32,227 nucleotides of DNA from Verrucomicrobiota bacterium (GTDB lineage: Bacteria > Verrucomicrobiota > Verrucomicrobiia > Limisphaerales > JACQFS01), in contig JACQFS010000148.1 of assembly GCA_016199935.1 (NCBI GenBank), positions 1 to 32,227 on the forward strand, in the 5' to 3' direction. Below, in pieces: positions 11,901 through 32,227 of this stretch. Under the pieces are notes generated by a model. It did no database searches and was not told where the DNA came from. It saw only the letters and a program-made list of their open reading frames with translations. The translations under genes were made by a program, and so were the position numbers. Within the stretch, counting starts at the first letter, position 1; each line of letters begins with the position of its first letter.

Positions 11901-13017
11901 TGCTGCCCATGAAGCCGAGCAGCGGATCGTGGAGGCGCGTCTTCTGCAAATTGAGGAACACCGGATCAATGCGGTTGAGCGTGCCGAGGCCCCGCTCGCT
12001 GAGACGGCGCGCGGGTTTGCCCGGCGACTCGAACGGGTTCGGGCTGCCGAGCGAGAGCTGCTTCTCCCCGCCGCGCTCGAAGATGCGGAGGATGTTGCTT
12101 GGCTGGCTCGCGGCGAAACGCGGGAGCGGTTCGAGGTAGGGGAGCACGCCGTATTTGATCGTCAGTTCCTCCGTGACGGGGATCGGGCTCTCGAGCCGCA
12201 ACGCCACGCCGTCAAGGCCGTAGGACTGGCCGTAGAGCGGGTTCTTGTGCGGCACGGCGCCGTTGTTGTAGAGCGCGGCACCCCAGAGCATCGCGCCGTG
12301 GTTCATCATCGAGTGACCGACGTTCCGCACGATCTCGCCGTGGCACAGGCCGCATGCCTTCTCCGCGACGCGCAGGTCGCCGGGATTCACGAACTGGATG
12401 AACTCGGCGGATTCGTGATTGAGCAGGATGGTCGAGTCGTTCGGGTTCGCGGAGCTTTCCCAAAAGAGCGGGTTCAGCGGACGCACATGGGCCTGGCGCA
12501 GCATCAGGCCGGGCGTGGGATCGCCGCCGTGGCAATCGGTGCAGCCGAGCACGACGTGCGGCGAGACGTGCATCGAGTGCGTGTCGGTGCCGGCGTGACA
12601 TTCGAGGCAGCCGCGGCTCTTGCGCGTCGCCTCGGCGGGTGATTGGTCAATGCGGTTCGAGGGCGGGCGTTTTTGCGAAGGGTCGCGCGGCAAATCTTTC
12701 GGAACGGAAATCTCCGGCCCACTCGCCGCGAGGTAGGTGAGCAGCGTGGAGCGCGTGGGGTCATCGAGCGACGCGGCGTGCGCGGTGGTGAAAGTGAGTG
12801 TGAGGAGGAGCACGGAAACGCCCAGTTTGCCAAATGCCCTCCCTCCAGCTTTTTCCTCGCGCTCGTTTCCCTCACCCCGGCCCTCTCCCGGGGGGAGAGG
12901 GAGAAACGCATTCAGCGTCGGCGTGAACAGGCACGCGCCGTTGACGGGAATGGTCGCGAGGTTTGCGGTTCGCAATTCGCAAACATTTTCTGGAGCCACT
13001 GTCGGATTCGTCTTCAT
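8965..13017 (-). CDS. Ten-haem c-type cytochrome fused to an LVIVD-repeat domain
   Basis: A large exported redox protein (1350 residues from the first ATG). Ten CXXCH haem c motifs start at residues 137, 159, 222, 384, 441, 577, 604, 724, 735 and 842. The last 420 residues are LVIVD-type beta-propeller repeats (GFEVFDVANI, GFKVVDISEPTKPKLV, GLAFIDISNPEQPKLD). The signal peptide KLGVSVLLLTLTFTTAHA is only at about residues 64-81, and the 5' region encodes a copy of the 37-bp repeat, so either the leader is unusually long or the true start is downstream at a non-ATG codon. The ATG at 13017 is two bases after the stop of the beta-barrel gene. This points to an electron carrier in the periplasm or at the outer surface, working with that barrel. 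No catalytic signature (such as NrfA CXXCK) is visible. Confidence 0.9.
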   Translation of the reverse strand: MKTNPTVAPENVCELRTANLATIPVNGACLFTPTLNAFLPLPPGEGRGEGNEREEKAGGRAFGKLGVSVLLLTLTFTTAHAASLDDPTRSTLLTYLAASGPEISVPKDLPRDPSQKRPPSNRIDQSPAEATRKSRGCLECHAGTDTHSMHVSPHVVLGCTDCHGGDPTPGLMLRQAHVRPLNPLFWESSANPNDSTILLNHESAEFIQFVNPGDLRVAEKACGLCHGEIVRNVGHSMMNHGAMLWGAALYNNGAVPHKNPLYGQSYGLDGVALRLESPIPVTEELTIKYGVLPYLEPLPRFAASQPSNILRIFERGGEKQLSLGSPNPFESPGKPARRLSERGLGTLNRIDPVFLNLQKTRLHDPLLGFMGSNNHPGDYRSSGCTACHVVYANDRSPTHSGWYAKYGNQGLSFSGDTAIRKDERGHPIKHEFTRSIPTAQCMNCHMHQGNLFVNPFLGYTWWDQETDGEFMYPKQQHDPTDEELVWAIRKNPEAAAARGLWSDLEFLEKVSELNPKLKHTQFADYHGHGWVFRAVFKKDKTGNLLDLDDKLVPHDDPMKFAKAVHLKDAHLAKGMQCADCHFKTDVHGDGLLYGEPRAATTIECIDCHGTVSARPTLITSGNGGRIDPATGKPRGGVDLRESNTPWGPRFVWEGKKLFQRSTMSPDIRYEVPQTMDTVDPKSSHYNAKSAYAKTLLRDGKSWGGVPAREQCPNDLAHDESRITCQVCHSSWATSCFGCHLPMRANQRVPLNKFEGITTRNFTGYNPQVVRDDVFQLGVDATYKSNRLAVLRSSSAIIVGSQNGNREWAYSQQQTVSAEGYSGQAYNPHFPHTTSGVGTTKNCTDCHLAKANDNNAWMTSLLGFGTGTVNFFGRYAWVGAGKGGLYGVVWTEQEEPQAALGSHLHHLAYPENFRKHSEENRSTLKEAHHHHAKEILDLTLRGEYLYTANGADGFEVFDVANIDQKGFSERILTAPVSPLGQRTYVRTKYATSVTLPSTLGIDPLRKQLPENQEQKVSPIYAWVFVTDREEGLVMVSVGTLVDGNPNNNFLDKEKIIRFNPEGKLTGAMHSFMAGTNLYVVGQNGLFVVGLRNDALEAPSLVGELTGVFKNPRAVGVQFRYLFVTDDEGFKVVDISEPTKPKLVPGATVPLKHAQRFYLARTYAYVANGPEGLAFIDISNPEQPKLDRMFNADGALNDTRAVQIGSVSASMFALVADGRNGLRVLQMISPENVPGHMGFSPAPNPKLIATFPTETPAVAVSRGLDRDRVADETGNQTVVFGRRGSRPFRLDEMKTFYEHDGVIYTVEDVAADHQKLQTKSGVELKPNREFKSEPDQITVTPAQSKRLVRRGQ
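12869..12905 (-). repeat. 37-bp repeat, copy 2, inside the cytochrome open frame
   Basis: Inverted copy of the element at 20-56 with one mismatch. It lies in frame in the N-terminal part of the decahaem cytochrome gene and would encode FLPLPPGEGRGEG, just upstream of the signal peptide. Confidence 0.85.
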
Positions 13018-13019
13018 GG

Positions 13020-15437
13020 CTAGTAGGTCAGGTTGATGGCGAGCACGCCGCTGTAGAGAAAACCGGGAACCTCGCCGGCGCGACCCGGCGGATCGAAAGT
13101 GGGGACGGGCTGAGTGTTGCGGCGGTAGATGTCTTTGTAGCCGCGGCCGGGGATGAGCGCGCCGAAGCCGGCGGAGATGATGCAGTTGTCAGTGAGGAAG
13201 GGGCGGTATTGCACGCCGAGGCTGAAGTCCCAGCCGAGTTCGCCGTCCACATTGTCGGTCAGCAGCACGTTCTTGAGGCTGTCGGTCTCGGCGAAGCGAA
13301 TGTAGTTCGCGTTGATGAACGCGCGGAGTTTCGGCGTCACGTCAATGTCCGCGCCGAGGCCGGCGACGAACGCGCCGGGATTCACGAAGTTCGCCTGCCC
13401 CTGCGTCTTGCTCGTGCGCAGGCTCGTGACGAGGCTGCCGCGTTGCTTGAGGTTCACCGCGGAGCCGCCGAGGTTGAAACCCTGCCGCACGTAGTAGCTG
13501 AACGGCCCGCCGGTGAAGTTCGGGTTGTCCACGATGGTGTCGAAGCCGCGGCCCTTCCCGTCGTCGGCGTTGCTGTCGCCCGACGCGTAAAAGACCGACG
13601 CCTTGTAGCGGATCCAATCGCGGTCGTAGCTGAGTTCGAGCGCGGCCATCTGCGCGTTGATGTCCACGGGTCGCGCGGCGATGCCGTTGAAGTCGTCGCG
13701 CCCGAGCGCCTGATAAAAAGCGTGCGAAACATTCCAGCGCCCGATGTGCCCGTCGCCCGCCCAGCCGAGGTAGTAGGCGTTTACGTTGTGCGGCGCGACC
13801 GAGCCGACGGGCGCGGGCCGGACGATGTTACCGTTGCGGTCGTAGTGAACGCCGCCGTGATCGAAGTTGGCATGGACGCTCCACTGCGCCGTGTAGCCTT
13901 TCCACAAAAAATCCTGCCAGTAAAAATTCGCGATGAGCACCTGCTGGTCGCGGCGGTCGAAGGAGTTCAGCTCCGAGTTGGTGTCCTTCTCGAAGAGGTC
14001 GAAGAGCGCGAGGTTGTATTGGTAGCGGTTGTTCGCGTAGTTGCCGAAGAGGCGGTAGCCGAGGTTCACCTCGTTGAAGATGAAACCGCGGAAGTCCGAG
14101 TTGAACACCTGGCTGCCCGCGCGCACCGCGACGAAATCATAATTGTCCGACAGGTCGCGCAGGTGCAGCTCGGCGAAAAATTCCTGCAACGCGAAAAACG
14201 TCCGCGTGCGCGTCGTGTGGGTCGTGCCGCGGTAGCTCGACGGCGCGGCGCCGACCTGGCCGGCGAGGAACGGGTCGAGGTCGCCGGGATTCACGATGCC
14301 GCCGTTGGGCGGGGGCGGCGTGTTGTTGTTGCCGCCGAGCACGCCGCGCGGATCGGGCGAGACGAGGCCGGACTCGCGCGTGTTGACGTAGTTCACGTTG
14401 AACACCGGCTGAATATGGATCGCCCACTCGACCGGCTTGAAGGCCGTCTCGCCCTTGAACAGATCGAGCGTGACCGCGAGGTTGTTCTGCACCACGAACT
14501 GCTCGCCCTGCCCGTAGAACTCCGCCTGCCCCGGCGTCGCCGCGCTCACGCCGCTGGGCACCGGCAGCCGCCGCGCCTCGAAGTCCGTCTGCGTCGAGGC
14601 GGTGAGGTTGAGAAAAATATCCTGACCGAGGACCGGCACGTCGCCCTTGAGCAAACTCTGGCGATAGGGATCCCAGATCATCGGCGTCTTCACGCCGTAG
14701 GGCGCCTCGACATCGCCGCGCGTGTAACGCGTCCACGGCACGAAGCCGATCTTCCAACGGTCCGGCCGTGGCACGGTGTTCTTCGGATAATCCGACGGCA
14801 GCAACGAATACTCCGGCACCTCGCGCTTCTGATCGAGTTTGAGGTTGCGCCGTGTGTTCTCGCGCGGGAGTTCCTGGTCTTTCGGCAGCGGGTCGTAACC
14901 AAAATTTCCCGGCGGCGGTTGCGGCGCGCTTTGGATTGTCGAACTCCGCAGGTTTATCCGCGGCAGCATCATTTCCGCCGCGATGCCCGGAGTGGGCGTG
15001 ACGACCTTTCCCGAAACCTCGTCACGGAAAAGTTGCGGCGCGGCGGGGAGCGGCGTGGGCGCGCGCAGCATCGCGCCCGGATCGGGATTGAACGGCGGGG
15101 CCGGCTGCGGCGGCGCGTTGCTGCTGATCGTGACGGGCCGGATGAGCCGGTTCGTCGCGCCGGGAAACTGGTTGGGCAGGGGACCGAGCCGGTTCGGATC
15201 GGGATCGAAAACCGCCGGCGATTTCGGCGGCGTCTCGGTGGTCATCTCCTGTCCGAACTTCAGCGGGTCCGTGCTCTTCGGCGTCGGAACGCGCCCCGGG
15301 TCAGGCAGAGCAGCCGGTGCGTTGCTTTGCGCGGACGCGGCGGACGGCAACAAAAGTCCGAACGCCATGCCTGAACAAAGACAGTTCCGGAAGCGCCGGC
15401 ACCAGGAGACTTTGGGTTGGTTCGCCCGCGGGGGCAT
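13020..15437 (-). CDS. Outer-membrane beta-barrel (porin-like) protein of the cytochrome operon
   Basis: An exported protein of about 805 residues. After a signal peptide (hydrophobic AFGLLLPSAASA ending in AQ) comes a Pro-rich periplasmic-looking segment of some 200 residues, then a long region of alternating amphipathic strands with many aromatic residues (for example YNLALFDLFEK, VNAYYLGWAG, LRAFINANYIRF) ending in ...LAINLTY, consistent with a terminal barrel strand. An internal AELHLRDLSDNYDFVAVRAGSQVFNSDFRGF segment resembles alginate-export or DUF1302-like porins; I am not sure of the family. The frame is open upstream to a TTG at 15473; ATG at 15437 was chosen, and ATG at 15368 is also possible. 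First gene of the operon with the decahaem cytochrome (2-bp gap) and NHL protein, so a porin-cytochrome conduit is a reasonable inference. Confidence 0.82.
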   Translation of the reverse strand: MPPRANQPKVSWCRRFRNCLCSGMAFGLLLPSAASAQSNAPAALPDPGRVPTPKSTDPLKFGQEMTTETPPKSPAVFDPDPNRLGPLPNQFPGATNRLIRPVTISSNAPPQPAPPFNPDPGAMLRAPTPLPAAPQLFRDEVSGKVVTPTPGIAAEMMLPRINLRSSTIQSAPQPPPGNFGYDPLPKDQELPRENTRRNLKLDQKREVPEYSLLPSDYPKNTVPRPDRWKIGFVPWTRYTRGDVEAPYGVKTPMIWDPYRQSLLKGDVPVLGQDIFLNLTASTQTDFEARRLPVPSGVSAATPGQAEFYGQGEQFVVQNNLAVTLDLFKGETAFKPVEWAIHIQPVFNVNYVNTRESGLVSPDPRGVLGGNNNTPPPPNGGIVNPGDLDPFLAGQVGAAPSSYRGTTHTTRTRTFFALQEFFAELHLRDLSDNYDFVAVRAGSQVFNSDFRGFIFNEVNLGYRLFGNYANNRYQYNLALFDLFEKDTNSELNSFDRRDQQVLIANFYWQDFLWKGYTAQWSVHANFDHGGVHYDRNGNIVRPAPVGSVAPHNVNAYYLGWAGDGHIGRWNVSHAFYQALGRDDFNGIAARPVDINAQMAALELSYDRDWIRYKASVFYASGDSNADDGKGRGFDTIVDNPNFTGGPFSYYVRQGFNLGGSAVNLKQRGSLVTSLRTSKTQGQANFVNPGAFVAGLGADIDVTPKLRAFINANYIRFAETDSLKNVLLTDNVDGELGWDFSLGVQYRPFLTDNCIISAGFGALIPGRGYKDIYRRNTQPVPTFDPPGRAGEVPGFLYSGVLAINLTY

Positions 15438-15541
15438 CGGTCGGATGAGAATTTTTCCAGGCGTCGAAAGCAAGCCGCAACTCGGCGCGTGCCGGGTTTG
15501 CGCTTGCTAATAGTGGCCGCATTTTCCAAAACCATCGCGCC

Positions 15542-17128
15542 GTGAGAAAGCTGCCCATCCTCGCACTGCTGTTCGTCATGGCGCCGCCCTGCGTCCGTGC
15601 CCAACTCACGCTGGCGGACGTGCAGACCATCATCGCCCAAGCCGTCACGCGCGCCACGGCGCTCACGCCGGGAAAAACTTCCACGAACGCGACCATCGCC
15701 GTGACGGATCGCGAGGGCTGGGTGCTCGGAGTTTGGACGCTGAGTCCGGCACCGGCCGCGATCAACCTCACCAACGTCGCCAACGCCATCGCCAAGGCCG
15801 GCACCGCCGCGTTCCTCAGCAGCGACGAAAATGCGTTCTCGTCGCGCACGGCCGGCTTCATCGTGCAGCAAAATTTTCCGCCCGGCGTGCAGAACAAGCC
15901 GCCTGGTCCGCTCGTGGGCGTGAATTTTTCCCAGCTCACTTTCTCCGACATCAACAAATACAAAGGCCCCGGCAGCGTCATCGTCGCCAACGCCACGCCG
16001 GGATTCTCCATCGTCTCCGTGCCGACGCCGATCACCGGCGGACTCGCCGGCACGCCGGGCGGGCTGCCGCTTTACAAGTCTGGCAAGCTGGTCGGAGGCG
16101 TCGGTGTCGCGGGTGATGGCGACGGGCCGTTCGACATCACGCCGCAAACCATCTCCAGCCCCGACGTGGACGAGGATGTCGCGCTCGCGGGGCAGCAAGG
16201 CTTCGCGCCGTCGCCCGTCATCTTCGGCTCGCACGTGACGATTGATGGCATCCGCGTCGCCTACGTGAGCAGCAGCACGAGCCTCGGCGCGGTGACGCCA
16301 TTCGGAAGTCTGCCGGGCGCGGCGGTCGCGCCTTACTCACCCATCGCGTCGCCGGTTCCCTTTGCGTATCCGACGCCGACGTTCGGAGGCGTGACCGGCG
16401 AATTGCGCCAGCCCATCACTGCCGACCCGTCCGCAGTGCCGTTGCCGAACGGCGTCGCACGACTCAGCGCGGCGGAGGTGACGAGCATCATCGTCGCCGG
16501 CGCGAACCGCGCGCGCACCACGCGTGCGGGCATCCGGCTGCCGCGCGGCCGGCCGATGCAGGTGTTCATCACCGTGGTCAACAACCCGAACGCCGCCGGC
16601 AGTCCGCCCGTGTGCCTCGGGACGTTCTGCACCTCGCCGGACACGACGCGGTTCAGTTGGGACGTGGCGGTGCAGAAGGCGCGCACGGCGGTTTTCTTTT
16701 CGGCGACCAATCGCGCCTACTCGTGCCGCACCGTCGGCTTTCTCGCGGAGAGCCTGTATCCGCCCGGCATCGCGAACACCACGCCCGGACTTTTCTTTGG
16801 AATGCAGGAACGCTTCTGCATCGTGACGACCGGCGTCTCCGTGCTCGCGACGAACACGGTCAACGGCGCGGTCTTCAACACCTCCGCGGCGGTGAACCCG
16901 AACCTGCCGAACGGCATCACGATTTTCCCCGGCGGCTTCCCGATCTACCGCGACGGCGTGCTCATCGGCGCCATCGGCGTCAGCGGCGACGGCATCGACC
17001 AGGACGACATCGTGAGTGCGAGCGGCGCGTCCTTGTTTCCCGCGCCCGCAGCGATTCGCGCGGACGGGATGCAATACCGGGGCGCGCGCCTGCCCTACGC
17101 GAAATTTCCGCGCAACCCGGCGTTGTGA
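15542..17128 (+). CDS. Secreted protein with two GlcG/HbpS-like domains
   Basis: A 528-residue exported protein (GTG start, signal peptide RKLPILALLFVMAPPCVRA). Two copies of the GlcG/HbpS fold (PF03928, haem-binding or haem-degrading type) are visible. The first, residues 22-215, has TLADVQTIIAQAVTRA, VTDREGWVLGV, SSRTAGF and GGLPLYKSGKLVGGVGVAGDG. The second, about 305-528, has AAEVTSIIVAGANRARTT, ITVVNNPN, RTAVFFSATNRAYSCRTVGF and GGFPIYRDGVLIGAIGVSGDG. HbpS of Streptomyces binds haem outside the cell, but GlcG-type domains have other uses and the ligand here is unknown. It is divergent from the porin/decahaem cytochrome operon, which makes a haem-related role plausible but unproven. Confidence 0.85.
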   Translation: MRKLPILALLFVMAPPCVRAQLTLADVQTIIAQAVTRATALTPGKTSTNATIAVTDREGWVLGVWTLSPAPAAINLTNVANAIAKAGTAAFLSSDENAFSSRTAGFIVQQNFPPGVQNKPPGPLVGVNFSQLTFSDINKYKGPGSVIVANATPGFSIVSVPTPITGGLAGTPGGLPLYKSGKLVGGVGVAGDGDGPFDITPQTISSPDVDEDVALAGQQGFAPSPVIFGSHVTIDGIRVAYVSSSTSLGAVTPFGSLPGAAVAPYSPIASPVPFAYPTPTFGGVTGELRQPITADPSAVPLPNGVARLSAAEVTSIIVAGANRARTTRAGIRLPRGRPMQVFITVVNNPNAAGSPPVCLGTFCTSPDTTRFSWDVAVQKARTAVFFSATNRAYSCRTVGFLAESLYPPGIANTTPGLFFGMQERFCIVTTGVSVLATNTVNGAVFNTSAAVNPNLPNGITIFPGGFPIYRDGVLIGAIGVSGDGIDQDDIVSASGASLFPAPAAIRADGMQYRGARLPYAKFPRNPAL

Positions 17129-17896: not shown

Positions 17897-19888
17897 TCAT
17901 TTCCCCCGCAGATCAATTTCGCCCGCCCAGTCCGCGGGGAGTTGCTGCTGCTTTAGTTCGGCGATCTGATCGAGGTAGAAGCGGGCCGGGCCATCGTCGG
18001 GGCGGAGTTCGAGGGTCTGGCGGAAGGCGAGTTCGGCCGCATCAAACGCCTTGCGTTGAAACTGGTGCAGGCCTCGCGCGAAACTTTCCCGCCACGCGGC
18101 CGAGGGTTCCTTCTCCGCCGTCGGAATCAGTTCATACACCTCGACCACCTTGTCGAAGCCCTTGAACTTGAAATGCCCGGCCAGCCGGCTGACGAGCCGG
18201 TCCTCGACGTGCCGCTGGACTTCGCGCGTGGCGAGGATGTGCGTGCCGAGAAATTTGTTCAGCCCCTCGAGGCGCGAGGCCAGGTTCACGTTGTCACCGA
18301 TGGCCGTGTAGTCGAAGCGCGTCGAGCTGCCGATGTTGCCCACGCAGACCGGGCCGGTGTGCAGGCCCACACGCGTGCGCAACGGGAGGTTGCGCTGCGT
18401 GGCGTCGAAATAAACCAGTTGCTCGTGGAGCCGCAGCGCTGCGCGGCAGGCGCGCTCCGCGTGGTCGGCCTGCGGATACGGGGCGTTCCAGATCGCGAAG
18501 ATCGCATCGCCGATCAGGTCCATCACCGTGCCGTCCTCGGCGTGGATGCAGGCGATGGCGGCTTCGTAGTAATTGTTCAAGAGCCGCACCAGATCGTCGG
18601 GGTGCAGCCGCTCGGCGATCTTGGAAAAGCCGGCGATGTCGCTGAACAGGATGCTCACTGTCTGCTGGGTGGCGCCGGGCTTCAGCAATTGCGGCTGGGT
18701 GAGCAACTGCCGCACGCGCGCTGGCGAGAGATGCCGCCCGACCGACTCGGCGAGCACGGCCTTCTCGAACTGCTCGCGCAGCGCGCTGCAACCGTTGGAC
18801 CACGTCAGCCCCGCGGGCACCACCACGCCCGCGATGATCAGCCAGCCGAACCAGCAATGCAGCCAGGCCATCAGGACGACGGCCAGCACGGCGAACAAAG
18901 CGAACACCGCCAGCGCGAACAGCCCCGCCCTTACCGGCCGGAACGTCGAGAAACCCCAGCCGGCCAGCGCGCCGATGATGACCGCCAGCAGCGACTCCAG
19001 CCACCGCGGCGCGCGCACCAGCCAGTCGGTGTAGAGCAGGTTCTGGAACGCCGTCGCGTGCAATTCGATGCCCGTGGCGAGGCCGTGCTGACCGAAGCGC
19101 GAATAGGGCGTGGCAAACTCGTCCTTGCCCGCGCTGGCGAATCCCACGGACAGCCGCGAGCCGATGAAGACAAATTTGTTTTTGAAAAATCCGTCCGGCA
19201 ACCCTTCGCCGCCCAGAGCTTGGTGATAACTCACTGCCGCGAAGGAGCCGGGTGGGCCGTGGAAATTGAGCCAGCGCGGCGCGAGCCGTTCGTCGGGCCG
19301 TTGCGTGACCGGGGCGCCGAGCAATCGCGCGGCTTCCCACGTGAGGGCCGGCGTGTTGCTGGTGCCGGTGGATAATTTGCGCACGCCGTGGAAGGCATCG
19401 TCGCGCTCGAACACGGCCAGACCCCACGCGGCGGCGGCCTGCTTTAACGCGGGCGTCGGTTCGCGAACCACCGGTTGTGGCGCGCCCACGGGCCGGTCGT
19501 TCGCCGCGGCCAGCACCACGCGGCCGTGCGCGCGCATCGCCTCGGCGAGGGCTGCATCCGCCGGCTCGGAGTCGGAAAACACGAAGTCGAACACCAGGAG
19601 CGTGGCCCCTTCGCGCGTGAGTTTGCTGATGAGTTGCGAGTGCAGGCGGCGGTCCCACGGCTGATTGAAATTTTGGTGGAGCTTCGCGTGCGACTCGTCG
19701 TCGAGGTAAACCAGCACGACATCATTGGGGCGCTCGCGGGTCAGGAATAAAAACGGGAGGTCGTAACTCAGCCGTGCCAGACCGTCGCCGATGGGAAACC
19801 AGACCAGCGCGAGACCCAGCACGGCGAGCAGCGCGGCGCCCGCCGGTTTGCTCCAGGTCAGGAACCCTTTTTGGACGGGCGTGGGCAT
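17897..19888 (-). CDS. CHASE2-domain class III nucleotide cyclase
   Basis: A membrane signalling enzyme of 663 residues from ATG 19888. After a first membrane helix (residues 16-34) comes a periplasmic CHASE2 sensor domain to about 290 (VVLVYLDDESHAKL, TLLVFDFVFSD, KFVFIGS), then about three closely spaced helices (300-370), and a class III cyclase domain. The metal aspartates are in SILFSDIAGFSKI (D417) and IGDAIFAIWNAP (D461), with GLHTGPVCVGNIG and YTAIGDNVNLASRLEG following. A TPR-like C-terminus (FQRKAFDAAELAFRQTLELRPDD) ends the protein. Oddly, the position that is Lys in adenylate cyclases (GTVxK) is Asp457 here. An upstream ATG at 19936 would overlap the FecR gene by 41 bp; 19888 leaves a 7-bp gap. 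It is co-oriented with the FecR-barrel gene. Confidence 0.9.
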   Translation of the reverse strand: MPTPVQKGFLTWSKPAGAALLAVLGLALVWFPIGDGLARLSYDLPFLFLTRERPNDVVLVYLDDESHAKLHQNFNQPWDRRLHSQLISKLTREGATLLVFDFVFSDSEPADAALAEAMRAHGRVVLAAANDRPVGAPQPVVREPTPALKQAAAAWGLAVFERDDAFHGVRKLSTGTSNTPALTWEAARLLGAPVTQRPDERLAPRWLNFHGPPGSFAAVSYHQALGGEGLPDGFFKNKFVFIGSRLSVGFASAGKDEFATPYSRFGQHGLATGIELHATAFQNLLYTDWLVRAPRWLESLLAVIIGALAGWGFSTFRPVRAGLFALAVFALFAVLAVVLMAWLHCWFGWLIIAGVVVPAGLTWSNGCSALREQFEKAVLAESVGRHLSPARVRQLLTQPQLLKPGATQQTVSILFSDIAGFSKIAERLHPDDLVRLLNNYYEAAIACIHAEDGTVMDLIGDAIFAIWNAPYPQADHAERACRAALRLHEQLVYFDATQRNLPLRTRVGLHTGPVCVGNIGSSTRFDYTAIGDNVNLASRLEGLNKFLGTHILATREVQRHVEDRLVSRLAGHFKFKGFDKVVEVYELIPTAEKEPSAAWRESFARGLHQFQRKAFDAAELAFRQTLELRPDDGPARFYLDQIAELKQQQLPADWAGEIDLRGK

Positions 19889-19895
19889 GACGGGT

Positions 19896-22800
19896 TCAGA
19901 AGTGGAACTTGAGCCGGGCGTAGAACTGCCGTTCACGCGGCAGATCGGGGAAGGGCGTCAGCGGGTTGAGCCGGTAATCAGCCCCGGTGAGGTTCAGCAC
20001 ACCGACCGTCAGTTCCCCGCGTTGACGCCGCCAGCGCCAGCCCGCGAACAGATTCAACTGCGGCACGGACTCATTGGCCAGCGCCGACGCGTAGCCGTCA
20101 TTGTCCTGCACGAACCACTGGAGTTCCCCGCGCGCGAAGAAGCCGCTGCGGTGATTGTAGAGCAACTGCGCGGCGGCCCGGTGCAGGAGGGCGCTCTCGT
20201 CGGTCTGGGCGCCGGCATACACGGCGGGGTCAATGAGCGGGAGTTGGCGTTGCAGCCGCGAGTGGATGAGCCGGTAGCTCGCGCCCCAGGACCATTCGTC
20301 GCCAAGCAGTTGGTTAAAGGTGGCCGCCAGCGACTGCTCGGCATAATCGAGATGCTCGCGCGTGGTGCTGGCGGTGATGTTCGGCGGCGGGTTCGCCGCC
20401 ACGGAATCAAACGCGCCAATCGTGCGGTCCACTTCCGACCAGAGCCACTCGCCTTGCAAGCCGAAGTAACAATTGGCGGGGAGTTTCAAATCGAGCGCCG
20501 CGCCGGCGGTCTGATAGCGCGGCGCGGCCACCGAGCCGACGATGGATTCGGAGATGATGGTGCGGAACGCCTGATTGAAGCCGGCGAGTTGCGTCGGTTC
20601 GAGTCGCACGCTTTCGTCAAACGTCACGCCGCCCAGCGAACGCGTGAAGACACCGCGCACCGTGACCGCCGGGTCTGGTGTCCAGATGATCGCGGCCTTG
20701 GGCGACCAGCGTTCGCTGGTGGATTCACCCGGGCTGACGGGCACGCTGCGGAAATTATCGGGAAACGACAGATGATCGTAAGCCAGCCCGCCCAGCAGGT
20801 GCAATTCCTCGCCGAACTTGTGGGTGTAGTAGGCGTAGCCGGACAGGCGGACCAGATTTTCCGTCATGTCGGCGGCCGACGGATATCCAAACTGATTGCT
20901 GATGCCGGGCTGGTAAGTCGCGACATTGGTGATGAGGTTGTGGGTGGCGATGTCCCCCGCCTGAAAGCGTCCGCCGATCACCAGCGTGCAGTGTTCCGAG
21001 TCGAAAATCTGGTTGGCCTCGCCGCTGTAGATCACCGGGCGGCTCCGATATTCAAGATCATACAGTCGCTTGAGGTTGCTGACGCCGTTCGTGCCGCCGT
21101 CGAACAGCATCAGGCCCGGCACCGCCAGATCCGTCACCTGCTGGTCGCTTTCCAGCCGGCCCGCGAGCAGCAGCGTATGCACGCCGGGTTGCCACTCGTG
21201 GTGGAAGCCGGCGAACAGCAGCGGATTTTCGGACTGCGAAAAAGTTCGCGCCGGCCGCGCCCGGACTGGGTCGTAATACTGGGTCACATCGCCGGCGCTG
21301 ACGTCCTGATACTTGGTCTGAAAGAAAACCGAGTCGGAGGGCGTGAGTTGCAATTTGGTTTGGGTATAGAACTCGATCCGGTCCAGCGTGGTGTTGGGTG
21401 CGTCACCACGTTGATGGATCTTTTCCACATCCAGCGCGTAGCTGACGCGATCCAACGTGCCGAACTGCGACGCCACCTCGCGCCAGTCGCCGTGGCTGGT
21501 GTATTCGGTGGCGGAACTCAGGCCGAGCCGGTTGCCCTCGAAGAACCGGGAATACTCCTGCTGGGTGATGTGCTGCGAGAGCGAGCCGCCGCCCACGGGG
21601 GCAAGGAGATTGGCGAGGAGGCGTTCACTGAACCACGCCGTCTCGTAACGCAGGTTGACGCGCTTGGGATCGCGCAACGCGTCGAAACTGTCCGCGAGAA
21701 ACAAATGCGCCGAGTGATTCGCGTAATCACCGCTCACCGCGCGGGCGGCTTCGCGCACGCTGACCTCGGGCAGGCCGGCGTCCTGATAGATCGTGGCCAG
21801 TTGCGCGTTGCGCACCGCGCGGTCCTGGTCGAGGAGCAGGCGCGAACGGTAAACGCGGCGGTTGTCGTTGAGCGCAAGCGAGAGTTCGAGTTCGCGGATG
21901 GCGGCGTTGATCTGAAGTTCCTGCCGGCTGAGCAAGGCGGCGTAAAGCCACGGTGTGGGATCGGCCGGGTCGAGGCTCGCGGCCAGGTCGAGTTCAGCGC
22001 GGGCGTGGCGGTTGTCGCCCACGGCGCTGAAAGCCTTGCCAAGATAACTGCGCAGCAGCGAGCGGTTCGGTTCGAGCGCGACCGCGGTCTGAAGATCGGC
22101 CCGGCCCGCCGCCAGCCGGCCTTGCCGCAGGCGGCAAAGTCCGCGTCCGAGCCAGGCGTTGCCCAGCGCGCCATCCAGCGTGATCTCCTCGTCGAACATC
22201 GCTTCCGCCTCGCCGAACCGACCCCGGGCGCTGAGCAGAAAGCCACGCAGCGCGCGGGCCTGCGCGTGGCGCGGCGACAAGGTCTGCGCGCGCGCGAGCG
22301 CGGCCTCCGCCTCGGCGGTCCGGCCGAAGCTGAATTCCAGTTCCGCCACGCGCACCCACGCAAATCCAAAATCCGGGGCGCGTGTCGTGGCCGCACGCGC
22401 GGCGGCCAGCGCATCCAGCAGCGCACGCGGCGAATTGGTTTGCGATTGCAACCAGTAAGACTCGGCGAGCCATTCCGAGGCGGAGACCGGGGGGGTCGTG
22501 TCACGCGGCGGGCGCAGTTGTGCGGCGGCGATCATTCGTCGCAACGCGCGCGTCGGAGGAAACGCTGCCGGCAAGTCGCCGAGCAATCTTTCGGCAGTCT
22601 CGACTTTTCCGACGGACAGGAGGAGTGCCGCGCGGTAAGCGCGCGCGGATTCCGAGACCGATTCGTCATCCGGCGGCCACAATTCCAGCGCCGCCAGGAG
22701 GTCTCCACTCCGATACGCCGCCAGCGAAGGTGCGAGGCGCGTTTGCTCCGCCGAGGTGAACGCCAGTTCGCCGGGGTCGAGCGCGGCCGGATAGTAGAGC

Positions 22801-23426: not shown

Positions 23427-23436
23427 TCTGCGGCCC

Positions 23437-23465: not shown

Positions 23466-23485
23466 TCGCTGAATCCAAGAACGAT

Positions 23486-26168: not shown

Positions 26169-27860
26169 TCACCTCCCCTTGAGCGTGACCATTTCGCGCC
26201 GCTCGGTGTGATACGCGTGGCACGTGGAGCAGCCGTCCTTCACGCCGCCGCGCGGGCTGTGGCAGGTGACGCAGGAATTTTTGGAAGGGAGAATGATGTC
26301 GGCGGTGTCGCGGCTTTTCTCGGCGGCGTGGCAGTCGGCGCATTTCATGTTCGTGTGCTTCGCGTGGTTGAAGTCGCCGCGAATCATCCAGCGGTCGGGA
26401 ATCACCGGCGGCGTCACCGTCGGACTCGCGTCCCCCGTGGCCTTCACTTCGTGGCAGTAGGCGCAGCCCGAGTAGAGCGCGCGGCCCTGGCCGGTGAGCG
26501 TGCTGACGTTCACGGCGGGCGCGAGCGTGGCGGTGCTGAAGAAAACGCGCCGCTCCAGTTCCTCGCCCGTGCCGAACTGGCCGAGCAGCGACTGCAACCG
26601 CTCCTGCGTGTAGCTGCGCACCGCCGCATCGCCGGTCGCGAGGCCGTTGGTGCGCGCGTGGTCGGCGTATTGCTTGCCGAGGCTGCGGAGAAAGGCGCTG
26701 ACGAACGCGGGGTTGCCGTGCGGCAGTTGCAGCCGCGGCGTCGCGGGATCGAACTGCAACGAGTGGCACGCGCGGCAGTGCTGCTCGAAGTTGATCCGCC
26801 GGAAATACGCGCCCGCCGCATCAGGCTGATGGCAGTCGGCGCACGCGAGCTTTCGGCCGTCGCCGAAACTCACGGTGTCGCCCGTGAGGTGCAGCGCGTG
26901 GCCGAACTTGAGCGTGTTCCCTTCGCGCTGATTTTCCGCGAGCACCTGAAACTCCGGATGGTCGGTGGCAAAATGGTTGATGAGCCTGGTGTAGCCGCCG
27001 GTCGCCGGCCGGGCGGATTTGAAAATGCGCTGGCCGCGATCCGGCCGGAAGTCGAACGCCGCGGCCGCGAGTGTCGCGCCCTTCGCGGCCGAGGCGGTCA
27101 TGATGCCCGCGTCGCCATGGCACGAGGCGCAGTTCGCATCCGTCGGCGGCTGGAGCGCGCCCGCGCCCTGATGCTCGCGGTGGCAGAGCGAACACGAGTG
27201 ATCGCGCACGACGTTCGGTTGGTGGAACAGATGATTCGCGTGGCACTTCTGGCACGAGCCATCAATCGCCGTCATCTCCGTGCGCGTGATGCTCGCGAGC
27301 TTGTGAAATTCCAGCGGGCCGGGCGCGGCGTTGAACGCGGCTTTGATCAACTGTCGCGGGCCCGCGAGTCCGGCCGCGTGACAACCGGCGCACGTGTGGT
27401 CGGTGGCGTTGGTGCCGCCGTGCAGCACGGAGAAAGCGGAGCCGGAGTGCGGCGAGGAAAGCGTGCCGGGATTGATGAAGCCCGGCCGGCCCGGTCCGCC
27501 GATGAGCGCGAGCAACGCCGCCGCCGTCGCCGCGATCACCACCCACGTGAAACGTCCGCGTTGTCCGCGCAGGCTGCGCGCCGGCGTGCAGGGCGCGGTC
27601 TGGCGGCAGCATTGGCCGTCCGGCAGCGGGCCTTGTTCGCACGCGCCACCCGCGCGGTTGCAGCGCCAGCGGCCTTTTGCGTCGCCCTCTTTTTTCTCCA
27701 GCACCGGCGAACATTCCGCGGCGGCGCGGCAGTGGCCGAAGCGGCTCGGGCCGGCGGGGCAGGTGGCGTCGCCGTCGCAAGCGCGGCCGCAAATCCAATT
27801 CGCGTTCGGCCGCGCGTATTTCGCGGCGTCGAAATCGGGCGAGGGAAGTTGCTCGCTCAT
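26169..27860 (-). CDS. Membrane-anchored ten-haem c-type cytochrome with Cys-rich N-terminus
   Basis: A 563-residue protein, last gene of the redox operon. Residues 20-95 form a Cys-rich region with ten cysteines (24, 28, 34, 44, 50, 67, 74, 84, 85, 91; NWICGRACDGDATCP, GQCCRQTAPCTP) and no CXXCH. A single membrane helix at about 104-122, preceded by RSLRGQRGR, places this region in the cytoplasm and the rest outside. Ten CXXCH motifs follow at 157, 203, 223, 244, 340, 362, 466, 507, 530 and 544. Its length and haem spacing suit a cytochrome c3/c7-like multihaem electron carrier. Its ATG overlaps the stop of the di-haem b gene by 4 bases, so translation is coupled. It probably takes electrons from the membrane b-type subunit. 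Confidence 0.9.
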   Translation of the reverse strand: MSEQLPSPDFDAAKYARPNANWICGRACDGDATCPAGPSRFGHCRAAAECSPVLEKKEGDAKGRWRCNRAGGACEQGPLPDGQCCRQTAPCTPARSLRGQRGRFTWVVIAATAAALLALIGGPGRPGFINPGTLSSPHSGSAFSVLHGGTNATDHTCAGCHAAGLAGPRQLIKAAFNAAPGPLEFHKLASITRTEMTAIDGSCQKCHANHLFHQPNVVRDHSCSLCHREHQGAGALQPPTDANCASCHGDAGIMTASAAKGATLAAAAFDFRPDRGQRIFKSARPATGGYTRLINHFATDHPEFQVLAENQREGNTLKFGHALHLTGDTVSFGDGRKLACADCHQPDAAGAYFRRINFEQHCRACHSLQFDPATPRLQLPHGNPAFVSAFLRSLGKQYADHARTNGLATGDAAVRSYTQERLQSLLGQFGTGEELERRVFFSTATLAPAVNVSTLTGQGRALYSGCAYCHEVKATGDASPTVTPPVIPDRWMIRGDFNHAKHTNMKCADCHAAEKSRDTADIILPSKNSCVTCHSPRGGVKDGCSTCHAYHTERREMVTLKGR

Positions 27861-28681
27861 TTCGCGCCTCCCGAAAACGCATACACGATCACGATGTGCG
27901 CGAGCGTGAAGAGCATCAGCCCGTAGGTGAACGGCAGGTGGACGAACAGCCAGAGCTTGAGCGTGGTCTGGAGCGCGTGGTGGTAATCGAGTCCGTCCTT
28001 CTGGCGGACGAGCGCGGCGATCTTGTCCAGCGCGGCGCGCTCGTCGTTGTTGAGGAAGCGGCGGAGATCATTCAACTCGTCCATCACCGAACTCAGCGGC
28101 CGGCGCGACTCGGCGAGGTGCAGCCAGAAATCGCGCGGGCCGTTGAAGTAGTCGCGCAGCCGCCGCGCGTAAAAATCGGCGATGGTCGTGGACTTCGCGC
28201 CGGGGATGGCGGCAAGCGCGAGCGACTCGGCCTGTTGCTGGAGTGAGCGGCGCACGGTGGGAATTTTTTCGTAAATGACTTCGCCGCCGCGTGTCGTGAG
28301 CCGGCGCGGCAGCACGCGCGTGAGCACGAGCCCGGCGATCCCGCTCCCGGTGACGATGGCGTAGAGCACGAAGAGCGTGATGCCGAACCCGCTCCCCGGC
28401 GGACGGAACCGCAGATGCACGAGCAGCAGCGCGATGGTGAGGTAGCCCGAGTAGATGTGAAACTGGAGCCAGCCTTCCGAAGTGCCGAGCGGGAGGAACG
28501 GAATTTTTTTTCGCGCGTTGAAGACGGTGAGCATCACCATCACGGCGAAGAGCACCCAGCCCGTGAAGTAATCCCACGCCGTGAGCCGCGCGCTCCAGTG
28601 CGCGTGGGCGAACCACGCGACCGCCGTCGCTCCGATGAGGAACAGCAGGCCGGCCCAGCGTTGGCGCGTGAAGGAGGTCAT
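27857..28681 (-). CDS. Membrane protein with two H-X13-H pairs (predicted di-haem b subunit)
   Basis: A 274-residue integral membrane protein with about five helices. Helices at 72-92 and 243-270 each contain two histidines 14 residues apart, H75/H89 (FHIYSGYLTIALLLVH) and H248/H262 (VHLPFTYGLMLFTLAH). This is the spacing by which two helices hold two b-type haems, one on each side of the membrane, as in cytochrome b-type subunits. A soluble stretch (about 130-235) separates these helices and includes an amphipathic, charged segment. I cannot assign a named family. Located between the ferredoxin-like subunit and the decahaem cytochrome (4-bp overlap with the latter), it is well placed to pass electrons across the membrane between them. 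Confidence 0.82.
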   Translation of the reverse strand: MTSFTRQRWAGLLFLIGATAVAWFAHAHWSARLTAWDYFTGWVLFAVMVMLTVFNARKKIPFLPLGTSEGWLQFHIYSGYLTIALLLVHLRFRPPGSGFGITLFVLYAIVTGSGIAGLVLTRVLPRRLTTRGGEVIYEKIPTVRRSLQQQAESLALAAIPGAKSTTIADFYARRLRDYFNGPRDFWLHLAESRRPLSSVMDELNDLRRFLNNDERAALDKIAALVRQKDGLDYHHALQTTLKLWLFVHLPFTYGLMLFTLAHIVIVYAFSGGAK

Positions 28682-28684
28682 CGC

Positions 28685-30412
28685 TTATCGTTTAAGCCAC
28701 TTTGCGAAGGTGTCGAGATCGCCCATGTTCATGCGGGTGAGCGCCCCGTGCGGGCACGCGCGCTCGCACGCGGGGCCGCCGTGGTTCTCCACGCAGAGGT
28801 CGCACTTTGTCGCCTTGGAAATCGGGCGGAGACTTTTGTCCACGAGGAACGCGCCGTCGGTGTCGCGAATTTCCGTCATGCGGATGGCTTCGTAGGGACA
28901 GTTGTTCGCGCAGAGCGAGCAGCCGATGCACGTGAGCGGATTGATGACGACCTGGCCCGCGGCGGACTCGCGATGAATCGCGCCGGTCGGGCAGCCGATC
29001 ATGCACACCGGATCGGCGCAATGCATGCAGGCGTTGGCGACCATCACGCGGCCGTTGCTCGGGCCGTGGCGGAGGAAGCGTGGATTGTTGTCGTGCGTCG
29101 AGGCGCAGGCGCGCACGCAGTCGTCGCAGCGCGTGCAGCGGTCGAGGTCAATGAGCATCGTCGCCGTGCCGTTGAAGAACCGGTGCTCGGCGAGAAACTC
29201 CATCAGGTCGGTCCCAATTTTCTCCGCGGCGTGCGAGTCGCGGCGCGAGGAAATTTCCTCCGCCTTCGGCTCGATCAGTTCCGGCAGCTCGCGCACGGGC
29301 ACGGTGGGCAAAACAATTTTCTCCATCACCTCCGTCGGCACGATGATGAAGTGCGCGTAGCCGATGGCGCGGAGCGAGTGCTGCAAATCCACCGGCGCGT
29401 CGCGCTTGCGCCAGTTGTGGGCGATCTCGCGGAAGCCGAAGTTCTGGCCGGCGCCGAGATAGTTGAGCGTGCGCTGGCCGTTGCCGAACTTCTGGCTCAT
29501 GCGCGCGAAGCCGGCACGGACGAACACCACGCCGTTCGGATAATCGCCCTCGGCCGCGACGACAGGCTCCTGGTCGGGACGCGCGGCGCCGCCGGACTTG
29601 AGCAGCTTCTTGTAGTCGCCCGACCAGTCGTAGTCGCCGTAGGTCGCGAACTCGGTCTGGCCCACGACCACGTTCTCCTGTTCCTTCGTGAGGTGTTTGA
29701 AAATCGGGATCGCGCGCAGATACGAGCGCAGCGCCCGCTCGCGATAGACCGACTCGATGTGTTTCTGAAGCGCGTCGTCGTATTTCATCAGGTCGCGCAA
29801 GCCCTGCCAGCGCACCTCGAGCAACTCCGTGTCGTCGGTGTCGGCAAAAATCGTGGAGGTGCGCGGCATTCGGCTGAGCGCGGCGATTTCGCCGAAGAAC
29901 TCGCCGCCCTGCATCGCCTCGGTGCGGTGCTGATTCAGGACGCGCGGGAGGTCCTGAAGAAAAACGTGGACGTCCTCGCCGGTGCCGGTGCGTGCGTCCA
30001 CGCCCACGTCGGCGCGGAGTTGCGCGAGGCGGAAACTTTCCGGCTCGCGCCACGAGTTCCAAGCCTGGCTGAGCATTCGGAATACATTTTTCTTCTTAGA
30101 TTCCGCCCGGCCGAGCATCCGCGCGGGCAAGGGCGGTTTGAGCACGACGCGCGCGGCGCCGTTGAGGATGAGGAACGCGGACGTGCCGTAATCGCCATGG
30201 CGGACGATGATTTCGCCCTGCTTGAAACGGCGGATGCGCGAGTCGTTGCGGAGGATGTCGCGCAGCGGGGTGCGTTTTGGAAATTTCTCCTCGCTCATCT
30301 GGCTGAACGGTGCGGTGAACATCAGCCGCTGTGCGTCCTCGTCGGTCATCGCCGGGTCGAACGCGGCGTCCCAGCGCTGCGGACGGTTGACGATCAGCGG
30401 CGTGGTCGGCAT
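28685..30412 (-). CDS. Cyclic-nucleotide-binding domains fused to a four-cluster ferredoxin
   Basis: A 575-residue soluble protein. Residues 45-220 form a cNMP-binding domain: LRRF-type start (IRRFKQGEIIVRHGD), a 65-residue insertion, and an intact phosphate-binding cassette GEFFGEIAALSRMPRTSTIFA-like segment (E175 and R184 present). A second cNMP-like domain (about 232-365) has a degenerate cassette. The C-terminal 160 residues are a DmsB/NrfC-type ferredoxin with sixteen Cys in four groups (426/429/432/436, 462/465/470/474, 495/498/501/505, 537/540/549/553), predicted to hold four 4Fe-4S clusters. It lies 3 bp from the genes on either side. It would pass electrons from the flavoprotein to the membrane subunit, possibly gated by cAMP or another cyclic nucleotide; the gating is inference. 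Confidence 0.9.
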   Translation of the reverse strand: MPTTPLIVNRPQRWDAAFDPAMTDEDAQRLMFTAPFSQMSEEKFPKRTPLRDILRNDSRIRRFKQGEIIVRHGDYGTSAFLILNGAARVVLKPPLPARMLGRAESKKKNVFRMLSQAWNSWREPESFRLAQLRADVGVDARTGTGEDVHVFLQDLPRVLNQHRTEAMQGGEFFGEIAALSRMPRTSTIFADTDDTELLEVRWQGLRDLMKYDDALQKHIESVYRERALRSYLRAIPIFKHLTKEQENVVVGQTEFATYGDYDWSGDYKKLLKSGGAARPDQEPVVAAEGDYPNGVVFVRAGFARMSQKFGNGQRTLNYLGAGQNFGFREIAHNWRKRDAPVDLQHSLRAIGYAHFIIVPTEVMEKIVLPTVPVRELPELIEPKAEEISSRRDSHAAEKIGTDLMEFLAEHRFFNGTATMLIDLDRCTRCDDCVRACASTHDNNPRFLRHGPSNGRVMVANACMHCADPVCMIGCPTGAIHRESAAGQVVINPLTCIGCSLCANNCPYEAIRMTEIRDTDGAFLVDKSLRPISKATKCDLCVENHGGPACERACPHGALTRMNMGDLDTFAKWLKR

Positions 30413-30415
30413 GGG

Positions 30416-31720
30416 TCAGGCGTCCAGCACGAGATCGCCCTTGGGCTTGCAGACGCAGGTCAGGCACGTCCCGGCCTCCGGCTCGACGTCGGGCTTCTTC
30501 GCGTAGTCCACGGCACCGGACTTGATGGCGACGGCGCACGAGCCGCAACTGCCCGCGCAGCAGCCGGAGTCAATCCGCACGCCCTGCGCCTGCGCGAACT
30601 CCAGGAGGTTCGCCGCGGCCGGATCCCAGCGCACCGTCTTGCCGCTTTTGCCGAAGGTGACGGAGAGCTTGGCGAGGAAGCTCGTCTCGCTCGGGGTCGG
30701 CGGCGGGGTTTTCTTTTTCACCGTCGCGGGACCGAACGCCTCGAAGTGAACATCCTTCTCCGGCACGCCCCACGCTTCGAGACCGTCGGTGATGCTCTTC
30801 ATGAACGCGCCGTTGCCGCAGAGGTAATACTCGAAGTTGGACGAGGGCAGAACCTCCTTGAGCAACTCGATGCCGACGCGACCTTCGTGCTGGTAGTCGC
30901 GGTCCTTCACCTCTTCGGGGCTGGGGCGGCTGTAGCAGACGTGCAGGCGGATGTTGTCATTCGCGGCGACCAGCTTCTCGATTTCCTCCTTGTGGATGTG
31001 CTCGCGGCGGTTGCGCACGCCGAAGAAGAACCACACCTCGCGCCCCGAGCCGCTCGCGGCAATCGCGTTGGCCATCGCGAGCATCGGTGTGATGCCGACG
31101 CCGCCGGCGATGAGCACGACGGGATTTTTTTTCTCCATGTCCAAATAAAAATGGCCAGTGGGTGCCTTCGCGTTGAGGATATCGCCCTCTTTCACCACGT
31201 CGGCGAAGTAGCAGGAGGCCGCGCCGGGTGGCACGTCGGGTTTGTCCGGCGGCGCCTTTTCCTTTTTGATCGTGACGCGGTAGTAGTCCGCACGCGTCGG
31301 GCTGTCCGAGAGCGAGTAGCAGCGCACGAGCGGTTTGTCGCGGCCAGGCAGATCGAGTTGGAAGGTGAGATACTGGCCCGGCTTGTAAGGCGGGAGCGGC
31401 TTGCCGTCGTGCGGCGCGAGGTAGAACGCGAAAACGTCGTCGCACTCGCGGACTTTGCGCGTGACCTTGAACTTGCGGCAGCCGTTCCACACGAGCTTCT
31501 GCTGCTCGGCCTCCTCGCAACGGATCGCGGCCTCCTTGATTTGCAGCCGCAGCCGGTCCAGCGAGAGCCGGCGGTGACGGCGCTCGTAGAACGCGCGGCG
31601 CGCGCTGCCGGCGAGCATGAGAAAAAGTTGCAAGGCAAGTGCCGCCAGGATGGCAAGGCCCAAGGTGAGACTCAGCCGTCCGCCCAATTCCGACTGCAAC
31701 TTTTCGATAAGGGGTTGCAT
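30416..31720 (-). CDS. Membrane-anchored FAD/NAD(P)H oxidoreductase with 2Fe-2S domain
   Basis: A 434-residue protein, first gene of the redox operon. A single membrane helix at residues 17-36 anchors it. Residues 80-330 are an FNR-type reductase: FAD-binding RCYSLSDS (133-140), flavin-phosphate binding further on, the NAD(P) site GGVGITPM (206-213) and the C-terminal CGNGAFMKSI (301-310). The C-terminal 85 residues are a plant-type 2Fe-2S ferredoxin with Cys387, Cys392 and Cys395 (SGCCAGSCGSC) and Cys422 (LTC). The domain order resembles NqrF turned around, and phenol-hydroxylase-type reductases. It would feed electrons from NAD(P)H to the ferredoxin-like subunit encoded next. Confidence 0.93.
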   Translation of the reverse strand: MQPLIEKLQSELGGRLSLTLGLAILAALALQLFLMLAGSARRAFYERRHRRLSLDRLRLQIKEAAIRCEEAEQQKLVWNGCRKFKVTRKVRECDDVFAFYLAPHDGKPLPPYKPGQYLTFQLDLPGRDKPLVRCYSLSDSPTRADYYRVTIKKEKAPPDKPDVPPGAASCYFADVVKEGDILNAKAPTGHFYLDMEKKNPVVLIAGGVGITPMLAMANAIAASGSGREVWFFFGVRNRREHIHKEEIEKLVAANDNIRLHVCYSRPSPEEVKDRDYQHEGRVGIELLKEVLPSSNFEYYLCGNGAFMKSITDGLEAWGVPEKDVHFEAFGPATVKKKTPPPTPSETSFLAKLSVTFGKSGKTVRWDPAAANLLEFAQAQGVRIDSGCCAGSCGSCAVAIKSGAVDYAKKPDVEPEAGTCLTCVCKPKGDLVLDA

Positions 31721-31743
31721 CGCTGCCGCGGATTCATTACCAA
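31715..31743 (+). promoter_or_regulatory. Weak candidate promoter of the c554-like cytochrome
   Basis: TTGCAT (31715-31720), 17 bp, TACCAA (31738-31743), then 7 nt to the GTG at 31751. The -10 is poor, but the spacing matches other near-leaderless candidates. It overlaps the flavoprotein promoter region. Confidence 0.25.
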
Positions 31744-31762
31744 CGCGCTCGTGGCGAGTAAA
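31734..31762 (-). promoter_or_regulatory. Candidate promoter of the redox operon
   Basis: On the minus strand TTTACT (31757-31762), 17 bp, TAATGA (31734-31739), then 13 nt to the ATG at 31720. The -35 lies inside the first codons of the divergent cytochrome gene, so the two genes may compete or be co-regulated. Confidence 0.35.
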
Positions 31763-32227
31763 TGGCTAAGTGTCAATCGGGCGTGGCCGACGTGGCGCGG
31801 ATTGTCGCTCGCGCTGGGCATGGCGGCGGCGTTCGACGCGCGCGCCGGCCAGCCGGAACCGCCGGCGGTGCCGCATTTCCTCGGCGCGACCTCGTGCAGC
31901 AGCTCCGGCTGTCACGGCGGCGCGAGTGAAAAGCTGAATCAAAACCTCGTCTGGTCCACGCGCGACTTCCACTCCTTCCGACCTTACGCGACGCTCACCA
32001 CCGCGCGCTCGAAACAGATCGCCGACGCCGCGAAACTCGGCGACGCCACCCAGGCCGCGCAATGCACCGTGTGCCACGCGCCGCTGGAAAATGTTCCGCC
32101 GACGCAGCGCGGCACGCAGTTCAGTGCGCGCGAAGCGATCTCGTGCGAGAGTTGCCACGGCCCGGCCGAGGAATGGTTTCGTTTCCACACGCGCCCCGAC
32201 ATTTCCCACGGCGATCGCGTTCAGGCC
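31751..32227 (+). CDS. Multihaem c-type cytochrome (c554-like), truncated by window end
   Basis: Open from GTG 31751 to the end of the window (159 residues so far), so the 3' end is missing. A signal peptide is present (SVNRAWPTWRGLSLALGMAAAFDARAG). A CX4CH motif CSSSGCH at about residues 48-54 is followed by CTVCH and CESCH. The arrangement FLGATSC...SGCHGG...FHSFRPYATL...CTVCHAPLE...SCESCHGPAEEW is that of octahaem/tetrahaem c554-type cytochromes; the CX4CH form of the first motif is known in such families. It starts only 31 bases from the flavoprotein gene on the other strand and so is likely part of the same electron-transfer cluster. Confidence 0.85.
   Translation, partial: MASKWLSVNRAWPTWRGLSLALGMAAAFDARAGQPEPPAVPHFLGATSCSSSGCHGGASEKLNQNLVWSTRDFHSFRPYATLTTARSKQIADAAKLGDATQAAQCTVCHAPLENVPPTQRGTQFSAREAISCESCHGPAEEWFRFHTRPDISHGDRVQA

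Follow-up and report, generated by a model that had tools for sequence, protein, structure and literature searches.

A widespread four-gene redox operon coupled to an outer-membrane porin–cytochrome module in Verrucomicrobiota

Results

A conserved four-gene block in a Verrucomicrobiota contig

The window analysed here is the entire contig JACQFS010000148.1 (G000:C252; 32,227 nucleotides) of a Verrucomicrobiota bacterium (assembly GCA_016199935.1), and all coordinates are window positions. Its minus strand carries a block of four redox genes in the order FLAVO, CNMP, MEMB and CYTC, joined by junctions of 3 bp, 3 bp and -4 bp (Table 1). Divergent from this block is a fifth gene, C554, whose 3′ part is lost at the contig end. 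A preliminary description of the locus had put forward the same arrangement: the 3-bp gaps and the 4-bp overlap agree with the coordinates, the divergent c554-like cytochrome is borne out by a PF13435 match to what is an incomplete gene running off the contig, and the gene contents (a [2Fe-2S] flavoprotein, a cyclic-nucleotide-binding (cNMP) protein with four [4Fe-4S] sites, two H-X13-H pairs and ten haems) are in accord with Pfam and with the sequence. That description ended at position 26169 and overlooked a Cys-rich N-terminus on CYTC, an outer-membrane module and a nucleotide cyclase.

Table 1 Features of the window, with positions, strand and supporting evidence
Feature	Position	Strand	Description	Evidence
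FLAVO	30416..31720	-	NAD(P)H/FAD/[2Fe-2S] flavoprotein, 434 aa	PF00970, PF00175, PF00111
CNMP	28685..30412	-	Two cyclic-nucleotide-binding-type domains and four [4Fe-4S] sites, 575 aa	PF00027, PF13247/Fer4
MEMB	27857..28681	-	Five-helix membrane protein, probable di-haem b, 274 aa	Conserved His, AlphaFold2 model, motifs
CYTC	26169..27860	-	Ten-haem periplasmic cytochrome c, 563 aa	10 CxxCH
C554	31751..32227, about	+	Tetrahaem c554-like cytochrome, start codon uncertain	PF13435
Cyclase	17897..19936	-	CHASE2 - class III nucleotide cyclase, candidate cyclic-nucleotide source	PF05226, PF00211
cl5	15542..17128	+	Secreted protein, two HbpS-like haem-degrading-type domains	PF03928
cl6	13020..15473	-	Outer-membrane beta-barrel, porin of partner module, 817 aa	Model match to solved barrels
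cl7	8965..13017	-	Large decahaem cytochrome with LVIVD repeats, 1350 aa, adjoins cl6	10 CxxCH, PF08309, PF14522

The neighbourhood conservation check named in the preliminary description was made with a CNMP profile search of named genomes, which gave 535 related stretches. Locus counts refer to the best 80 of these; gene presence was scored with a hidden Markov model (HMM) per family and ligand conservation over 74–87 homologues. All four genes occur together in 74 of the 80 loci, and in 73 of these 74 they share a strand, FLAVO being opposite in one. The other six loci are short of one or two genes, and several of them lie at contig ends. The hosts are mostly Verrucomicrobiota, together with Planctomycetota, Alphaproteobacteria, SAR324 and others, and the ligand residues, which cover the sites for FAD/NAD, [2Fe-2S], four [4Fe-4S], the two probable b haems and the ten c haems, are 98–100% conserved across the operon proteins. 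Because so many loci are complete and the ligands are so strictly kept, the block is not a product of chance; the four-gene system is real and widespread. CNMP was found in 11 of 289 genomes of a phylum sample (E 1e-60) and in 26 of 246 genomes of Planctomycetota, the phylum of locus L081 (E 1e-80). The most constant periplasmic neighbour is C554, present in 69 loci, and all 69 clustered homologues have four haems.

Cofactor and ligand sites of the operon proteins

FLAVO is composed of FAD_binding_6, NAD_binding_1 and Fer2 domains (Pfam) and has one N-terminal hydrophobic membrane helix. Its [2Fe-2S] cysteines, Cys387/392/395/422, are kept at 99% (74 homologues), and its closest solved relatives are flavohaemoglobin and NqrF reductase domains. 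An Rnf/Nqr identity was nevertheless rejected: the NqrF model TIGR01941 scores 113 bits against a cut-off of 295, and the domain order differs, the [2Fe-2S] domain of FLAVO being C-terminal and not N-terminal. The block also holds no Nqr partners, which places it outside Na+-NQR.

CNMP matches cNMP_binding and several Fer4 models in Pfam, with PF13247 at 37.1 bits (cut-off 26.2). Its 16 Fe-S cysteines fall into four sets, and all are 99–100% conserved (87 homologues). The first cNMP domain has F173-G174-E175, A178 and R184 in 87/87 sequences, and this cassette (FGE...R) aligns with the ligand-binding sites of PKG and PKA in a comparison for which the query was typed without the inter-motif loop. 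Judged by these residues, the first domain retains the Glu and Arg that bind phosphate in domains of the ligand-binding type; the second cNMP domain is without a phosphate-binding cassette. In some CNMP homologues an FHA domain is found at the N-terminus (L099:9645-11714; L083:9683-11695), which suggests phosphothreonine as a second input.

The AlphaFold2 model of MEMB (predicted local distance difference test (pLDDT) score 93.6) has five transmembrane (TM) helices. Two histidine pairs, H75-x13-H89 and H248-x13-H262, are 100% conserved at all four positions (75 homologues) and belong to the motifs W71/H75/H89, S113-G114-I-A-G117 (SGxxG) and W244/H248/H262, in which the W, G and H residues are 95–100% conserved. 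These pairs indicate that MEMB probably binds two b haems. In Pfam, MEMB matches DUF4405 alone, below threshold, and not PF01794; comparison with the PDB gave no fold match below E 0.001, and a profile search of PDB sequences was empty. The system resembles ferric reductase/NADPH oxidase (FRE/NOX) proteins in its cytosolic NAD(P)H, its FAD, its two b haems on H-x13-H-type pairs and the putative delivery of electrons outside, but differs from them in having four [4Fe-4S] clusters and c haems added and in MEMB, which has neither a Pfam ferric-reductase domain nor a solved-fold match. Membership of MEMB in the NOX/ferric-reductase group is unsupported by Pfam or by the fold search.

CYTC matches cytochrome c7/c3 models in Pfam and has exactly ten CxxCH motifs. 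Its haem Cys and His residues are 98–100% conserved (81 homologues), as are eight further histidines, which are candidate distal haem ligands. The protein is laid out as a cytosolic Cys-rich N-terminus (residues 24–91), one TM helix (~104–122) and a periplasmic ten-haem part. The N-terminus contains eight cysteines kept at 99%, arranged in two similar tandem four-Cys repeats (CxnCxxGPxxxGxC...CxP). Residues 24–91 have no Pfam match, and neither CYTC nor cl7 matched PDB sequences. We considered this N-terminus as an obligatory Fe-S relay, a reading weakened by a Sphingobium relative that has an FHA-type domain in its place; for the same reason, a role in docking or regulation is favoured.

Coupling to outer-membrane modules

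The low-confidence model of cl6 (pLDDT 57) matches solved outer-membrane barrels, with AlgE the best (E 3.6e-13). The window encodes a barrel with a multihaem cytochrome, cl6 with cl7, which is the general mark of a porin–cytochrome conduit. Clustering of the neighbours in the 80 loci revealed two arrangements. Type I loci, which are mostly from Verrucomicrobiota, have cl6, cl7 and cl5 in the vicinity of the operon. The neighbours in type II loci are the 5-haem cytochrome cl12 and the beta-barrel candidate cl10, and C554 is usually inside the block; the hosts are Planctomycetota, Poribacteria, Latescibacterota, SAR324, Alphaproteobacteria and some Opitutaceae. Within the examined flank, the type I partner is present in 36 loci, the type II partner in nine and both in none. 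Homology between cl6 and cl10 was undetected by hhalign (probability 1.2%), and in a CNMP tree type I (38 rows) and type II (11 rows) are split by a branch with 100% support. The source genome holds both forms, namely the type I operon of the window and a full type II set on contig C25 (L097; G000:C25:8000-22942), where the 5-haem gene, the barrel candidate and FLAVO converge on C554-CNMP-MEMB-CYTC and ATP synthase genes adjoin.

The association with cl7 extends beyond the immediate neighbourhood. Among operon-bearing genomes without cl7 near the operon, all of those searched (18/18) carry it elsewhere. In the phylum sample cl7 is found in nine of 289 genomes, including all six with a type I operon; five of these belong to one family, so they do not amount to six independent events. 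The operon is coupled at genome level to the outer-membrane module cl6/cl7. Two minor observations concern this module: cl5 travels with the cl6/cl7 pair in many loci, and cl7 shows a local match to the selenite/tellurite-reduction cytochrome ExtM at 53 bits against a cut-off of 800.

Alternative flavoproteins next to one outer-membrane pair

Plasmid pMSHV of Sphingobium herbicidovorans MH encodes a fusion of a flavoprotein of the pyridine-nucleotide-disulphide type with two cNMP domains and a 4Fe-4S domain. This fusion is followed by a MEMB relative and then by a ten-haem cytochrome with a cytosolic FHA-type domain, and neighbouring genes include relatives of C554 (3e-49), cl5 (7e-72), cl6 (1e-148) and cl7 (E=0). 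NADPH flavoproteins of the CysJ type adjoin cl7 in two of three sampled genomes that have cl6/cl7 and no CNMP match. Three NAD(P)H flavoprotein families are found beside one outer-membrane pair, the CysJ case being the weaker because CysJ-type genes also serve sulfite reduction. Close to cl5/cl6/cl7 in loci L129 and L130, which lack CNMP, are genes for CysJ-type flavoproteins and for class III cyclase domains.

A cyclase gene between the operon and the outer-membrane module

The CHASE2 cyclase gene of the window sits between the operon and the outer-membrane module. Its product aligns to CyaB, and the metal-binding Asp and an NLASRLE motif are present. A CHASE2 cyclase lies near the operon in 13 of the 80 loci. 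CHASE2 genes number just four in the source genome, and class III cyclases five, which makes a random association improbable, although most instances fall in one clade. We take PRT in the CNMP nucleotide site as a hint of cyclic GMP (cGMP) and the DYT motif in the cyclase as a hint of cyclic AMP (cAMP). Adjoining the cyclase gene, at 19896-23561, is a FecR-TPR-barrel protein; in relatives its place is taken by a shorter gene that belongs to a different size class.

Relation to known systems

He et al. 2017 (PMC5566968) described a putative porin–cytochrome cluster, PCC4, that comprises a porin, 4-, 5- and 10-haem cytochromes and an inner-membrane protein with five TM helices, an SGxxG motif and two W-x3-H-x13-H motifs. 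In its subgroup II, a PF13247 gene lies upstream of the gene for the inner-membrane protein; the electrons of PCC4 are depicted as flowing to quinones (PMC5566968). MEMB has each of these inner-membrane motifs and the five TM helices, and the window further resembles subgroup II in having a PF13247 gene (CNMP) 3 bp upstream of MEMB as well as 4- and 10-haem cytochromes. By contrast, type I loci have no 5-haem gene nearby and a decahaem/LVIVD protein instead, and cl6 and cl7 show no detectable homology to their PCC4-type counterparts, cl10 having stood in for the published porin. The second set of the source genome, L097, matches the PCC4 gene list with its 4-, 5- and 10-haem cytochromes, barrel candidate, FLAVO, CNMP and MEMB. 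Sequence comparison thus makes the window operon a sister form of PCC4, with the inner half in common and the outer half not, and the system is a variant of porin–cytochrome electron conduits and not a separate kind. The preliminary description did not recognise this as a characterised complex, which holds insofar as no solved structure matches MEMB or CYTC, but PCC4 (PMC5566968) shares the MEMB family, the Fe-S gene and the 4- and 10-haem cytochromes.

Two other reports describe related clusters. In ghost-rock metagenome-assembled genomes (MAGs), the Group-1 clusters of PMC13264449 (2026) have a 4-5 kb decahaem gene beside a porin of ~20 strands, often with a ferredoxin-NADP reductase nearby. 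By size and layout, this decahaem/porin pair is probably the type I pair, whereas the cNMP/4Fe-4S protein, the di-haem b protein and the ten-haem inner-membrane cytochrome are absent from the text considered. He et al. 2017 (PMC5615132) reported a novel porin and multihaem cytochrome cluster in Verrucomicrobia with homologues in strain IMCC26134, and we found that this strain (L061) carries the four-gene operon beside cl6/cl7. The clusters of PMC5615132, which may be the same as that of the window, are described with eight-haem periplasmic cytochromes. Term searches of the main text of PMC5566968 and PMC5615132 found neither a cyclic nucleotide nor a flavoprotein; the supplementary domain figure on PCC4 may list them. 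Our literature searches found no biochemical test of the four-gene system, no proposal of NAD(P)H as direct donor of the chain, no description of a complex that joins cyclic nucleotide, 4Fe-4S and multihaem elements, and nothing on LVIVD combined with multihaem proteins.

Discussion

We consider it reasonably probable that this system exports electrons from NAD(P)H to the outside of the cell under the control of a nucleotide and with no requirement for quinone. In such a scheme, the FAD of FLAVO, anchored at the cytoplasmic face, would be reduced by NAD(P)H, and electrons would pass from the FLAVO [2Fe-2S] cluster to the four [4Fe-4S] clusters of CNMP. They would then cross the membrane through the two b haems of MEMB to the ten periplasmic c haems of CYTC, from which the c554-like tetrahaem protein may carry them to cl7/cl6 and on to an extracellular acceptor, for example humic quinones or Fe(III)/Mn(IV). 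Gating of this flow by cAMP or cGMP may fall to the first cNMP domain of CNMP. Among readings that give every conserved site a role, this path is the simplest. Its course from NAD(P)H to outside c haems had been proposed in the preliminary description, and the conserved ligands, the strict linkage and the Sphingobium fusion fit it; the proposal did not take in the outer-membrane partner at 8965-15473.

The likeliest role would be that of a regulated overflow for electrons, or a valve that balances the redox state when oxygen is limiting, because electrons leaving outward from NADH would dissipate membrane potential and not build it. A system that lowers the membrane potential in this way would conserve no energy and would need control, and a nucleotide sensor would fit that need. 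A more specific proposal, that cAMP or cGMP from the neighbouring CHASE2 cyclase directly switches a quinone-independent NAD(P)H-to-outside valve, in several phyla and with at least two unrelated outer-membrane conduits, is tentative, and as a whole we think it somewhat doubtful.

Electrons could also flow inward: the porin, the periplasmic cytochromes and MEMB would pass them from an extracellular donor such as Fe(II)/Mn(II) into the quinone pool, and the flavoprotein and Fe-S protein would make NAD(P)H or form a side branch. PCC4 was found in Zetaproteobacteria and Hyphomicrobium that oxidise Fe(II), with its electrons modelled as moving inward (PMC5566968), and MEMB shares its W-x3-H-x13-H and SGxxG motifs. 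However, some NAD(P)H flavoprotein is kept in nearly every complete locus, reduction of NAD+ from Fe(II) would be strongly uphill for a block without an ion-pumping subunit, and most of the named hosts are uncultured MAGs and not known iron oxidisers; we regard this direction as unlikely. Quite unlikely, too, is that MEMB is a quinol-reactive cytochrome b through which menaquinol feeds CYTC, the flavoprotein/4Fe-4S arm being a second NAD(P)H entry or a regulator. Quinol-oxidising cytochrome b proteins also have two H-x13-H pairs, and quinone activity was suggested for PCC4 by He et al. (PMC5566968), yet no quinol-reactive cytochrome b in the PDB matches the fold of MEMB below E 0.001. If the chain instead ended in the periplasm, with the c554-like protein acting on a small substrate, the constancy of C554 as a periplasmic neighbour (69 loci) would be accounted for, but the operon is coupled genome-wide to the porin/decahaem pair, and such a periplasmic reductase seems very improbable.

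Several points weigh against nucleotide-gated export to the outside. Its support consists of genes, sequence conservation and predicted models; the direction of the electrons is unreadable from sequence, and in the published model of PCC4 they travel inward, to quinones. MEMB may possibly have a quinone site, and the cNMP domain could be structural instead of sensing. In the window, the genes of the outer-membrane module are separated from the operon by 9-17 kb that include other genes, and the cyclase link is found mostly in one clade, further such cyclases being encoded elsewhere in the genome.

If the export of electrons from NAD(P)H is correct, it would offer uncultured lake and soil members of the Verrucomicrobiota and Planctomycetota a quinone-free disposal of electrons outside the cell, and it would set the control of extracellular electron transfer at the protein and not the transcript level. 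CymA, ImcH and CbcL are likewise inner-membrane modules that feed porin–cytochrome conduits, but these known Gram-negative entry points are quinol oxidases and are not known to include an NAD(P)H flavoprotein or a nucleotide-binding domain (PMC6295460); from them a conserved NAD(P)H-linked entry with an intact cyclic-nucleotide site would differ. The homologous system in the culturable Sphingobium makes the proposal directly testable. The pMSHV locus is L120 (NZ_CP020539.1 798000-827000), and a match to its cNMP/4Fe-4S part is found in nine other Sphingobium plasmid records.

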